Positions 37,070 to 42,174 of a stretch of 64,000 bases of DNA are shown in pieces; within the stretch, counting starts at the first letter, position 1; every line of letters begins with the position of its first letter. Source of the stretch: Pseudooceanicola aestuarii (GTDB taxonomy: Bacteria; Pseudomonadota; Alphaproteobacteria; Rhodobacterales; Rhodobacteraceae); contig NZ_JAAFZC010000001.1 in the NCBI RefSeq assembly GCF_010614805.1, forward strand, positions 1,776,001 through 1,840,000. Reading direction: 5' to 3'. The notes under the pieces are model-generated. The model did no database searches. It was given only the letters and a program-made list of their open reading frames with translations, and had not been told where the DNA came from. Both the position numbers and the translations under genes were made by a program.

Positions 37070-37106
37070 ATTTGTGATCACATGAGAAAATCGTGTGATC
37101 ACAAAT
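37070..37106 (-). promoter_or_regulatory. Paired GTGATCAC palindromes upstream of sucC
   Basis: Two 13-base arms, ATTTGTGATCACA and TGTGATCACAAAT, form a perfect inverted repeat around an 11-base spacer. Each arm contains the 8-bp palindrome GTGATCAC, and their centres are 21 bp apart (two helical turns). The element lies 105-141 bp upstream of the sucC start. A near copy precedes sdhC. It is a strong candidate operator for a regulator of TCA genes. Confidence 0.65.
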
Positions 37107-37212
37107 CTGTCCACAGCGCCTTGCGTGAGTCGCCGAACGCCCCCCACAGCCCGTGGGAACAGGGTCGCGCGGCTGTGGGTTGAGCTGTCGAACCCCAAGA
37201 GGAGCCTGAGTG

Positions 37213-37560
37213 ATGAACGGATATCTGCAACGCCACCTGCCCGCCGCCGTGTCGCGCAACCTGCCCGCGCGGCGTGATCGCATGGCCCGGCTGGCGCCGG
37301 TGGCCTTTGGCGGTTGCGTGGTGCTGGTCGGGGCCGTGCTGTCGCGAGTCCGGCCCGCCGTTCTGGATCTGCCGGACAGCGCGCCGCTGGGCGGTGAACC
37401 CCGTGGCCGGGCCGGACGCGCCATCGTGGGGCTGCGCGACGGGGCGCATCGCGTGGCACCGCAGAACATGTCGGCGCAGCTGGGGCGGTCGCTGATGCTG
37501 GCAGGGGCGGCGATGCTGACCGCGCGACTGCTGGACGAACTGGCAGACCGGCAGCGCTAG
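37213..37560 (+). CDS. Small hypothetical protein, single membrane helix
   Basis: A 115-residue basic protein with one hydrophobic segment (VAFGGCVVLVGAVL, about residues 31-45) and an amphipathic helical C-terminus. No family is recognised. AGAGGAG lies eight bases before the ATG, a good ribosome site, which supports it as a gene. It stands alone on the plus strand between two minus-strand TCA genes and could share the regulatory region containing the paired palindromes. A longer antisense frame over the same bases was judged less likely. Confidence 0.6.
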   Translation: MNGYLQRHLPAAVSRNLPARRDRMARLAPVAFGGCVVLVGAVLSRVRPAVLDLPDSAPLGGEPRGRAGRAIVGLRDGAHRVAPQNMSAQLGRSLMLAGAAMLTARLLDELADRQR

Positions 37561-37627
37561 GACACGGCGGCGCCGCAGGACGAGTCAGCCCCCCCGGAAC
37601 GCGCATCGGATCGGTGCAAAGGCATGA

Positions 37628-37660
37628 GAAAGGGGCGCAGCCAACCGGCGCGCCCCTTTC
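37628..37660 (-). terminator. Terminator after mdh
   Basis: An 11-bp stem (GAAAGGGGCGC paired with GCGCCCCTTTC) with an 11-base loop lies 27 bp past the mdh stop. The minus-strand arm ends in a short U run (CCCCTTTCTC). It also faces the plus-strand hypothetical gene and could act in both directions. Confidence 0.65.
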
Positions 37661-37687
37661 CCCTTGCATGTAAGTGATCGTGAGAGA

Positions 37688-38650
37688 TCAGGCCAGGGAA
37701 CTGTCGATGCCCTTGCAGGCCTCCACCAGGCCTTTGACCGCGTCGATGGATTTGTCGAACATGGCCTTCTCGTCCTTGTTCATCTTGATCTCGACGATGC
37801 GTTCGATGCCGCCTGCCCCGATCACGGTCGGTACGCCGACATAGGTCTTTTTCAGGCCGTATTGACCATCGCAATAGGCGGCACTGGGCAGCACGCGCTT
37901 CTGGTCTTTCAGGTAGGCTTCGGCCATCTCGATGGCAGAGGTCGCGGGCGCGTAGAAGGCCGAGCCGGTTTTCAGCAGGCCGACGATCTCGGCGCCGCCG
38001 TCACGGGTGCGCTGCACGATGGCATCCAGTTTTTCCTGCGTGGTCCAGCCCATGTCCACCAGGTCGGGCAGGGGGATGCCGGCGACGGTGGAATACCGGG
38101 TCAGCGGCACCATGGTGTCGCCGTGACCGCCCAGAACGAATGCGGTGACGTCCTTCATCGAGACATCGAATTCCAGGCTCAGGAAGTGGCGGAACCGTGC
38201 GCTGTCCAGAACGCCCGCCATGCCGCAAACCTTGTTATGCGGCAGGCCGGAAAATTCGCGCAGCGCCCAGACCATCGCATCCAGCGGGTTGGTGATGCAG
38301 ATCACAAAGGCGTCGGGCGCGTTGTCGCGGATGCCTTCGCCGACGGATTTCATGACCTTGAGGTTGATGCCCAGCAGGTCGTCGCGGCTCATCCCCGGTT
38401 TGCGGGGGACCCCTGCGGTGACGATGCAGACGTCGGCACCGGCGATATCCTCGTAGGATTGCGTGCCCTTCAACTTGGCGTCGAAGCCCTCGGACGGGCC
38501 GGATTCCGCTATGTCGAGCGCCTTGCCCTCGGGGGTGCCTTCGGCGATGTCAAACAGGACGACGTCGCCCAGTTCCTTGAGTGCGGCGAGATGGGCGAGC
38601 GTGCCGCCGATCTGGCCTGCGCCGATCAGGGCAATCTTGGGTCTGGCCAT
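37688..38650 (-). CDS. mdh: Malate dehydrogenase (NAD+)
   Basis: A 320-residue LDH-like malate dehydrogenase. It has [19 protein letters not shown] (NAD binding), [17 protein letters not shown] (substrate-binding Arg loop), [10 protein letters not shown], the [14 protein letters not shown] arginine segment, and the catalytic histidine in [12 protein letters not shown]. The start at 38650 has GGAG upstream and gives the standard [11 protein letters not shown]-terminus. It lies upstream of sucC but is separated by a terminator and a plus-strand gene, so it is probably transcribed alone. Confidence 0.96.
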
Positions 38651-40256: not shown

Positions 40257-40271
40257 ATAGGGAGAGGTCCC

Positions 40272-40823
40272 ATGTTCCTAATCGCCCTCGGCCTGGTTCT
40301 CTGGACCTGGCCGCATCTCATGAACTCGCTCACCCCCGGCCTGCGGACGCGGCTGGGGGACGGCAGGGCCAAGCCGCTGATTGCCCTTTCCGCCCTGTTG
40401 GGCATCGTGCTTATGGTCATCGGCTATCGCGGTGCCGATGCGGGGTTCGTCTATGCGCCGCCGGTCTGGGGGCAGCACCTGAACAACCTGCTGATGGTGA
40501 TCGCCGTCGTCTTTCTGGGGGCGGCTCATTCCAAAAGCCGCCTGCGCGCTCTGATCCGCCACCCCATGCTGACCGGGGTCGCGATCTGGGCCGTGGCGCA
40601 CCTGCTGGTGCGGGGCGATGCGGCCTCCGTCCTGCTGTGGGGCGGGATGCTGGCCTGGACGCTCATCAGCCGAACGGCGACCAACCGGCGGGCCCATGAT
40701 TACGTGCCCTTTGCCGGTGGCAGCCTGACGGGGGATATTCGGCTGGCAGTGATCTCCGCCGTGGTCTTTGCCGTCATCGTTGCGATCCACGCCTGGTTGG
40801 GTCCGATGCCGCTGCCCATGTGA
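40272..40823 (+). CDS. NnrU family membrane protein
   Basis: A 183-residue protein with five or six predicted helices. The family pattern is visible: WTWPHLMNSL at the start, LIALSALLGIVLMVIGYR, the VWGQHLNNLLMVIAVVFLGAAHSKSRLRALIRHPMLTGVAIWAVAHLLVRGD region broken by conserved His/Arg, and a final helix. NnrU proteins are associated with nitric-oxide metabolism in some denitrifiers, but many genomes carry paralogues of unknown role. Here it sits between mcl2 and mch, so nitrogen metabolism is not implied by its neighbours. Confidence 0.85.
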   Translation: MFLIALGLVLWTWPHLMNSLTPGLRTRLGDGRAKPLIALSALLGIVLMVIGYRGADAGFVYAPPVWGQHLNNLLMVIAVVFLGAAHSKSRLRALIRHPMLTGVAIWAVAHLLVRGDAASVLLWGGMLAWTLISRTATNRRAHDYVPFAGGSLTGDIRLAVISAVVFAVIVAIHAWLGPMPLPM

Positions 40824-40855
40824 CGGGCGCTCTGTGATCTGAAGAAAGGGATGCG

Positions 40856-41059
40856 ATGAAACTCTACCGTTTGCTGACAGAGGACGATACCTCTGCCTTT
40901 TGTCACAAGGTCAGCGCCGCGCTGAGCAAGGGGTGGGAACTCTACGGAGATCCCACCTATGCCTATGATTCCGCGAATGGAACCATGCGTTGCGGACAGG
41001 CGGTGACCAAGGAGGTGCCAGGCACCTACTCCCCCGACATGAAGCTGGGGGCACAGTGA
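40856..41059 (+). CDS. DUF1737 small protein
   Basis: A 67-residue soluble protein of family DUF1737: MKLYRLLTEDDTSAFCHKV, then ALSKGWELYGDPTYAYD and a conserved CGQAVTKEVPG. Function is unknown. Its TGA overlaps the ATG of mesaconyl-CoA hydratase by one base, so the two are translationally coupled, the same order seen in R. sphaeroides. A helper role for Mch is possible but unproven. Confidence 0.85.
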   Translation: MKLYRLLTEDDTSAFCHKVSAALSKGWELYGDPTYAYDSANGTMRCGQAVTKEVPGTYSPDMKLGAQ

Positions 41060-42090
41060 TGGCCAAGACCAATCCCGGCCGCTTCTTCGAGGATTATCGC
41101 CTGGGTGAGGTGATCCGCCATGCCGTCCCGCGTACCGTCTCGGGGGGGGAGAGGGCGCTGTATCACGCGCTTTATCCGGCGCGCCATGCGCTGCATTCTT
41201 CGGATGTATTCGCGCGGGATTGCGGGCTGGCTGCCGCACCGCTGGACGATTGGGCGGCCTTTCACGTGGTGTTCGGCAAGTCGGTCCCCGACGTGTCGCT
41301 GAACGCCGTGGCCAACCTGGGTTATGCCGAGGGGCGCTGGCTGAAGCCGGTCTGGCCGGGGGATACGCTGCGCTCTGAATCCGAAGTGATCGGGTTGAAG
41401 CAGAATTCCAACGGCAAGACCGGTGTCGTCTATGTGCGGACCCGCGGGCTGAACCAGGATGGCGACGTCGTGATGGAATTCTGTCGCTGGGTGATGGTGC
41501 GCAAACGCGATGTGGACGCGCCCGCACCAGATGCAGTTGTGCCGGACCTCGCGCCTGTCATCCCCGCCGAAGACCTGGCGATTCCGGGAGGGTTGGATTT
41601 CACCGGTTACGATTTCACCCTGTCCGGAGAGCCGCACCGCTGGGCCGATTACCATGTGGGCGAAGTGATCGACCATGTCGACGGCGTCACCGTCGAGGAG
41701 GCGGAACACATGTTGGCCACCCGGCTGTGGCAGAACACGGCCAAGGTGCATTTCGACGCGACCAACCGCGCCGACGGCCGGCGGCTGATCTATGGCGGGC
41801 ACGTGATCTCGATGGCGCGGGCGTTGTCGTTCAACGGGTTGGCAAATGCGCAGATGGTCGTCGGGCTGAACGGCGGCGCCCATGCGAATCCCTGTTTCGC
41901 GGGTGCGACGATCCGCGCCTGGTCCGAGGTTCTGGGCAAGGCCGAGACCGCCGCGCCCGGCGTCGGGGCGATCCGGTTGCGGCTGGTGGCGACCTCTGAT
42001 GGCTCCGTCGGGAGGCGTCGCGGTGAGGACGGAAAATACCTGCCGGGGGTGCTGTTGGACCTCGATTATTGGGCGCTGATGCCGCTGTAG
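41059..42090 (+). CDS. mch: Mesaconyl-CoA hydratase (ethylmalonyl-CoA pathway)
   Basis: A 343-residue double-hotdog MaoC-type hydratase that adds water to mesaconyl-C1-CoA to give beta-methylmalyl-CoA. It has GRFFEDYRLGEVI at the N-terminus, the ARHALHSSDVFARDCGL active-site region, and a second hotdog with WADYHVGEVIDHVDGVTVEEAEHMLATRLWQNTAKVHFD-like content and GGHVISMARALSFNG. Length and context match the R. sphaeroides enzyme. The start at 41059 is set by the overlap with DUF1737. An upstream extension of the frame is inside that gene. Confidence 0.92.
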   Translation: MAKTNPGRFFEDYRLGEVIRHAVPRTVSGGERALYHALYPARHALHSSDVFARDCGLAAAPLDDWAAFHVVFGKSVPDVSLNAVANLGYAEGRWLKPVWPGDTLRSESEVIGLKQNSNGKTGVVYVRTRGLNQDGDVVMEFCRWVMVRKRDVDAPAPDAVVPDLAPVIPAEDLAIPGGLDFTGYDFTLSGEPHRWADYHVGEVIDHVDGVTVEEAEHMLATRLWQNTAKVHFDATNRADGRRLIYGGHVISMARALSFNGLANAQMVVGLNGGAHANPCFAGATIRAWSEVLGKAETAAPGVGAIRLRLVATSDGSVGRRRGEDGKYLPGVLLDLDYWALMPL

Positions 42091-42138
42091 CCGGCAGGTC
42101 TGGGCGCGGAGGAAGGTCGGCGCCCCGGCAACGGGCGG

Positions 42139-42174
42139 TTTTGTGATCACGGCTTTCCGAGTGTGATCACAAAA
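42139..42174 (+). promoter_or_regulatory. Paired GTGATCAC palindromes upstream of sdhC
   Basis: TTTTGTGATCAC and GTGATCACAAAA form a perfect 12-bp inverted repeat around a 12-base spacer. The two GTGATCAC cores (42143-42150 and 42163-42170) are 20 bp apart, centre to centre. The element ends 114 bp before the sdhC start, almost the same as the distance at sucC. A shared activator or repressor of sucC and sdhC operons is inferred. Confidence 0.65.

Follow-up and report, generated by a model that had tools for sequence, protein, structure and literature searches.

According to the abstract by Imam et al. 2015, the GntR-family protein RSP_0981 of Rhodobacter sphaeroides, which we take to be AkgR, reportedly acts as an activator. 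A network study predicted RSP_0981 to regulate sucCD, sdh and the 2-oxoglutarate dehydrogenase genes (PMC4344238), and a second paper includes the palindrome GTGATCAC among AkgR sites and terms AkgR a transcriptional activator (PMC6365646). The latter also describes a GntR-like protein of Pseudomonas simiae, PS417_07240, which is 32% identical to AkgR and for which the conserved palindrome GTGATCAC occurs as one copy at -47 to -40 from the start codon, before a deoxyribonate oxidation cluster; the passages covered mention no pair or tricarboxylic acid (TCA) cycle genes in that connection (PMC6365646). Here we analyse a 64,000-nucleotide stretch of Pseudooceanicola aestuarii (contig NZ_JAAFZC010000001.1, positions 1,776,001 to 1,840,000; hereafter the window), in which GTGATCAC occurs as matched pairs 5′ of the TCA cycle genes sucC and sdhC. 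On the sequence evidence set out below, AkgR-type dimers very probably occupy these pairs and activate both TCA operons, with a single site acting to repress the regulator's own gene.

Each pair consists of two copies of GTGATCAC which, together with their T/A-run flanks, form a perfect inverted repeat:

37070..37106, minus strand: putative paired operator of sucC, a 13-bp inverted repeat (arms 37070-37082 and 37094-37106); 28 of 29 named close loci have the pair about as far from sucC, two of them with one mismatch
37074..37081, no strand assigned: proximal GTGATCAC of the sucC pair, exact match
37095..37102, no strand assigned: distal GTGATCAC of the sucC pair, exact match
42139..42174, plus strand: putative paired operator of sdhC, a 12-bp inverted repeat (arms 42139-42150 and 42163-42174); 18 of 29 named loci likewise have a pair 5′ of sdhC, and the rest end before sdhC or show none in the stretch covered
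42143..42150, no strand assigned: distal GTGATCAC of the sdhC pair, exact match
42163..42170, no strand assigned: proximal GTGATCAC of the sdhC pair, exact match

The two centres are 21 bp apart at sucC (minus strand) and 20 bp apart at sdhC (plus strand), and the gap from the end of the proximal site to the start codon is 108 bp and 118 bp, respectively. The initial annotation of this DNA had drawn attention to matched pairs before two operons on opposite strands, to their perfect inverted repeats and to their similar distance from the start codon, and all three were recovered with the same positions and spacings. Its chance rate for the 8-mer, about one per 65 kb, likewise agrees with ours: 0.98 copies are expected in the window against six observed, and a count of at least six was reached in 0 of 100 shuffles. 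The paired copies at sucC and sdhC are thus far beyond chance expectation. The remaining two copies, at 42484 (within sdhC) and 63149, on which the initial annotation was silent, are both unpaired.

Throughout the source genome (4,199,288 bases in 7 contigs), exact pairs with a gap of 8-18 bases occur at two places only, 5′ of sucC and sdhC, with 0 matches to the reversed control; when degenerate pairs were admitted at a 13-base gap, no convincing third site emerged in this genome, the five further places each carrying 3 mismatches. Of 394 genomes drawn from the family, source genome counted, 359 have the exact pair, usually at two places each, as do 322 of the 347 near-complete ones, with 0 reversed-control hits among the matches listed. 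A class-wide draw recovered it in 8 of 387 genomes, namely the source genome, five more members of its family and 2 of the 381 belonging to other families, while an order-level scan (287 of 292 genomes, all in the source genome's family) added no breadth. For individual loci we considered the best 80 of 582 named alphaproteobacterial sucC loci. The pair lies 5′ of sucC in 28 of the 29 nearest (L074-L102), including L094 and L098 with one mismatch, and ends 96-120 bp from the start codon across these 28; the exact pair is absent from the other 51 within the stretches covered, among them L134, which is titled Rhodobacteraceae. In the sole near locus without the pair, L086 (Roseovarius sp. 217), sucC stands directly behind another gene, and the genome has two exact pairs elsewhere together with an orthologue, at 81%, of the candidate regulator introduced below. 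A lack of conservation in close relatives had been named beforehand, in the initial annotation, as one of the outcomes that would refute its proposal, and at these frequencies the pairs are conserved.

The centre spacing hardly departs from 20-21 bp. Counting by eye among the 75 matches listed, the span is 29 bases for 65 pairs, 28 for 7 and 26 for 3, although eleven spans were allowed; for the window and the 28 named sucC loci, the span is 29 bases in 27 of 29 and 28 bases in the other 2. The 10-bp-gap pairs L022 and L042 (26-base spans) fall within open frames, and we regarded them as chance occurrences. Promoter profiles were built from exact pairs only, at 57 sucC and 35 sdhC loci, and the consensus from 29-base spans only (52 and 31 loci). 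In these profiles T/A runs like those of the window tend to flank the pair externally and are lacking internally. The spacers are AT-rich (G+C of 0.37-0.38 compared with 0.56-0.57 upstream) and little conserved in sequence. A triple GTGATCAC at 21-bp steps was found in 3 of 21 genomes, namely G285 (L230), G135 (L238) and G191 (C11:327609-327658), and adjoins sucC in the first two.

Additional pairs were also seen beside other genes, each named from its translation: a third pair 5′ of a fumC-like gene in G042 (L223, C16:228293), one 5′ of an acetyl-CoA acetyltransferase-like gene in G296 (L228) and one 5′ of a transporter-like gene in G230 (L240). As fumC represents the step after sdh, the L223 pair brings one more consecutive TCA step into the apparent regulon of G042.

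A candidate for the protein that binds these sites is encoded about 350 kb from the pairs, on contig C1 at about 1,464.9-1,465.5 kb. The source genome has 30 GntR matches above cut-off, and this gene, L067, is the only one of the 30 loci with an exact GTGATCAC and T-run at its own start, arranged in the order TTGACG, GCGGCCGATTTGTGATCACAGTCGCATC and ATG. Its product combines an N-terminal GntR helix-turn-helix (PF00392, 48.9 bits, cut-off 27) with a C-terminal FCD domain (PF07729, 68.2 bits, cut-off 24.3). Judged by targets, motif and family, L067 and AkgR (RSP_0981) of R. sphaeroides are most likely orthologues. Three hallmarks of the AkgR regulon are found together here, namely the GTGATCAC palindrome, the sucCD, 2-oxoglutarate dehydrogenase and sdh targets, and a GntR gene that tracks the sites. 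The suggestion in the initial annotation that AkgR might be the binder is thereby strengthened, through the published motif (PMC6365646) and predicted targets (PMC4344238), the co-occurrence of the GntR/FCD gene with the pair, and the site at that gene itself.

In residues 136-206 of L067, the FCD-domain residues N-L-E-F-H (136-140) and H183 are at least 97% invariant among 39 aligned sequences. Many FCD proteins have a further metal-binding His at the position where L067 reads R-S-D-V, and the effector site of this protein may be unusual.

Co-occurrence of regulator and pair was assessed in 77 genomes, comprising 52 hand-picked from the 359 that bear the pair and all 25 near-complete genomes that lack it. 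All 52 of the pair-bearing genomes picked encode an L067 orthologue (E <= 2e-76, 63-83% identity), and so, at 70-83%, do all 13 searchable genomes of 14 named loci. Among the pair-less genomes, three (G040, G155 and G291) have a full-length orthologue (70-79%), G109 has a 65% match to a fragment covering regulator residues 4-99, G281 and G338 have 49-50% matches, and the other 19 of 25 have no regulator match above 40% at E <= 1e-20. Fisher tests, which ignore shared ancestry, gave 3e-15 with four of these genomes counted as carrying the regulator and 3e-13 with six. Two of the three pair-less genomes with a full-length orthologue, G040 and G291, keep a sucC pair with one mismatch (GTGATCGC) at 21-bp spacing, and the third, G155, gave no sucC match.

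Near-miss pairs (up to 3 mismatches) numbered 3-119 per genome across the 25 that lack the exact pair (reversed control, 0-5); these were provisionally taken as background, whether or not they lie in genes, and the regions upstream of sucC were used instead. This check covered 22 of the 25 genomes, excluding G014, G172 and G195, and the sucC start was not found in G054. In 16 of the 20 pair-less genomes with a usable start, GTGATCAC is absent within one mismatch from the 260 bp 5′ of sucC, and a single degenerate copy is found there in each of G109 and G017. Second sucC-like loci (L265-L269) were left out of the count; L265 and L266 have one one-mismatch copy each.

The regulator's own promoter has a different organisation from those of the TCA operons. 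Close to the gene start, 24 of 30 orthologues carry an exact GTGATCAC, as do 11 of the 13 named ones and the source genome's own copy. For the promoter count, 31 of 44 loci were kept, the rest being without an exact site or a script-recognised ATG. Among these 31, TTGA[CT] begins 17-19 bp 5′ of the site in 29 (exactly 18 in 24), and the ATG follows 8-10 bp after the site in 30. Taking TTGAC as the -35 with a 17-bp spacer, the -10 would overlap the end of the site and transcription would start at about the ATG. The own-gene site would thus fall within the core promoter of a leaderless mRNA, a layout suggestive of a repressor.

At sucC, one of the strings GTTTA, GTTTC, GTTTT or GTTCA occurs 45-46 bases past the proximal site in 21 of 57 promoters, with no more than 4 at any other offset. 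TTGA[CT] is not conserved, with 9 scattered matches in the 57 sucC promoters and 2 in the 35 sdhC promoters; the TTGACC at 37045-37050 in the window has the right spacing for the -10 and is not conserved either. The -10 in question is a weak prediction:

37022..37027, minus strand: putative -10 of sucC, GTTCAT, which would put the site centres near -62 and -83

At sucC this layout is modestly compatible with an upstream activator.

Taken together, we infer that each GTGATCAC serves as operator for a single GntR/FCD dimer, the regulator most likely being the AkgR orthologue. Two dimers 20-21 bp apart would bind cooperatively on the same helix face, 5′ of the sucCD-sucAB and sdhCDAB promoters, and would jointly activate both operons, such that the regulator would govern the part of the TCA cycle that runs from 2-oxoglutarate to fumarate. 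On the single core-promoter site, the same protein would repress its own, probably leaderless, gene, resulting in a self-limiting switch. Many GntR/FCD proteins are repressors, and the single own-gene site has a repressive look, so the pair could instead be a repressor operator at which two dimers of the same regulator block sucC and sdhC until relieved by an effector. We consider this improbable given that AkgR is termed an activator (PMC6365646), that the sucC pair stands 96-120 bp from the start codon with the recurrent -10-like string about 45 bp downstream (21 of 57), and that TTGA[CT] is unconserved in sucC promoters (9 of 57), as for activator-dependent promoters.

It is very unlikely that the binder is a different TCA regulator, be it the LacI-family protein CceR or one such as FnrL. 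CceR is presumably RSP_1663 of R. sphaeroides. RSP_1663 is a predicted regulator of sdh and mdh, which speaks for its involvement, but its predicted motif, GTT N6-8 AAC, is unlike GTGATCAC (PMC4344238). This motif occurs 19 times in the window and has no match in 36950-37215 or 42085-42295, the two promoter regions; CceR, which the initial annotation had entertained alongside AkgR, was therefore rejected as binder of the paired element. It is also the GntR gene that tracks the pair, in a comparison made for that gene only. Operators of the CRP/FNR type have gapped half-sites, TGTGA-N6-TCACA or TTGAT-N4-ATCAA, whereas those of GTGATCAC abut. Least credible of all is that the repeats form an RNA or DNA structure (attenuator, terminator or cruciform) rather than protein sites. 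Perfect inverted repeats 5′ of operons would suit such a structure, but where departures from GTGATCAC were seen, one arm alone is altered and the other does not compensate (GCGATCAC in L094 and L098, GTGATCGC in G040 and G291; most searches were exact-only), the spacer varies in sequence while the spacing is nearly fixed, and loss of the pair tracks the regulator gene.

Several observations weigh against activation of both operons by an AkgR orthologue. No -10-like string is conserved among the 35 sdhC promoters, where upstream activation is not established, and the one at sucC is found in only 21 of 57. The exact own-promoter site is absent in 5 of 30 orthologues, with one more having one mismatch (near-matches were sought in some loci only), and in 2 of the 13 named ones. 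The co-occurrence statistic takes no account of shared ancestry, and the GntR gene was the only regulator compared. Orthology to RSP_0981 is likely on the basis of targets, motif and family, not of a direct alignment, and that name was not found among the homologues listed, 120 of 6742. Finally, seven named relatives have a long match to the gene 8-11 kb 3′ of sucC, whereas R. sphaeroides gene numbers place RSP_0981 beyond sdh (PMC4344238).

The genes downstream of the two pairs are as follows:

35772..36965, minus strand: sucC, succinyl-CoA synthetase beta subunit (NCBIfam NF001913, above cut-off)
34883..35767, minus strand: sucD, named from translation
34296..34823, minus strand: small protein between sucD and sucA, without NCBIfam match
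31339..34299, minus strand: sucA, 2-oxoglutarate dehydrogenase E1, named from translation
29718..31268, minus strand: sucB, dihydrolipoyl succinyltransferase, named from translation
42289..42678, plus strand: sdhC, cytochrome b556 subunit (TIGR02970, above cut-off)
42693..43064, plus strand: sdhD, named from translation and position
43080..44885, plus strand: sdhA, named from translation
44896..45675, plus strand: sdhB, named from translation

That sucAB are transcribed together with sucCD is an assumption based on gene order. An open frame at 37210-37560, without NCBIfam match, is divergent from sucC and has the intergenic region with the paired element in common with it; the sucC pair could in principle serve this frame additionally. 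The interval from mdh to sdhC contains, in the orientation of sdhC, a CitE/malyl-CoA-lyase-like gene (39315-40229) and a hydratase-like gene (40990-42090), both with NCBIfam matches below cut-offs only, which we presume may belong to the ethylmalonyl-CoA pathway.

More generally, the number and position of operators may amount to a family-wide code, in which a phased pair, sometimes a triple, activates and a single copy between -35 and -10 at the regulator's own leaderless gene represses, giving a one-protein homeostat for the TCA steps from 2-oxoglutarate to fumarate that is lost as a unit with its regulator; we regard this generalisation as one that could go either way. The apparent regulon is compact in the source genome, consisting of two TCA operons and the regulator, and its operators are recognisable by eye. 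As about nine of ten family genomes carry the pair, the activate/repress layout is directly testable, and genera without regulator and sites are natural experiments on the need for such control.

Among solved structures, the closest chain to L067 is Escherichia coli McbR (4p9f), which aligns to residues 18-212 (E 1e-20). McbR is distant from L067, whose orthologues share 63-83% identity. E. coli NanR is a GntR/FCD repressor, several dimers of which occupy a repeated operator made of direct repeats. The repeated operator is shared with the arrangement described here, but the direct repeats and the repression are not, and L067 matches NanR weakly (32.7 bits, cut-off 260). The nearest system is the AkgR (RSP_0981) regulon of R. 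sphaeroides, which likewise combines a GntR regulator, the same predicted targets and GTGATCAC sites (PMC4344238, PMC6365646). The regulator and its motif are thus already known, and the regulon has been in print before. The pair, its spacing rule, the co-loss and the autorepression are not described in the literature passages searched, which cover the sources in part and leave Imam et al. 2015 outside. Relative to that partial literature, the additions made here are the grammar of the pair, the joint loss of regulator and sites, and the layout suggestive of autorepression. Set against the AkgR regulon, the system described here is distinguished by two sites 20-21 bp apart at each TCA operon and one core-promoter site at the regulator gene.

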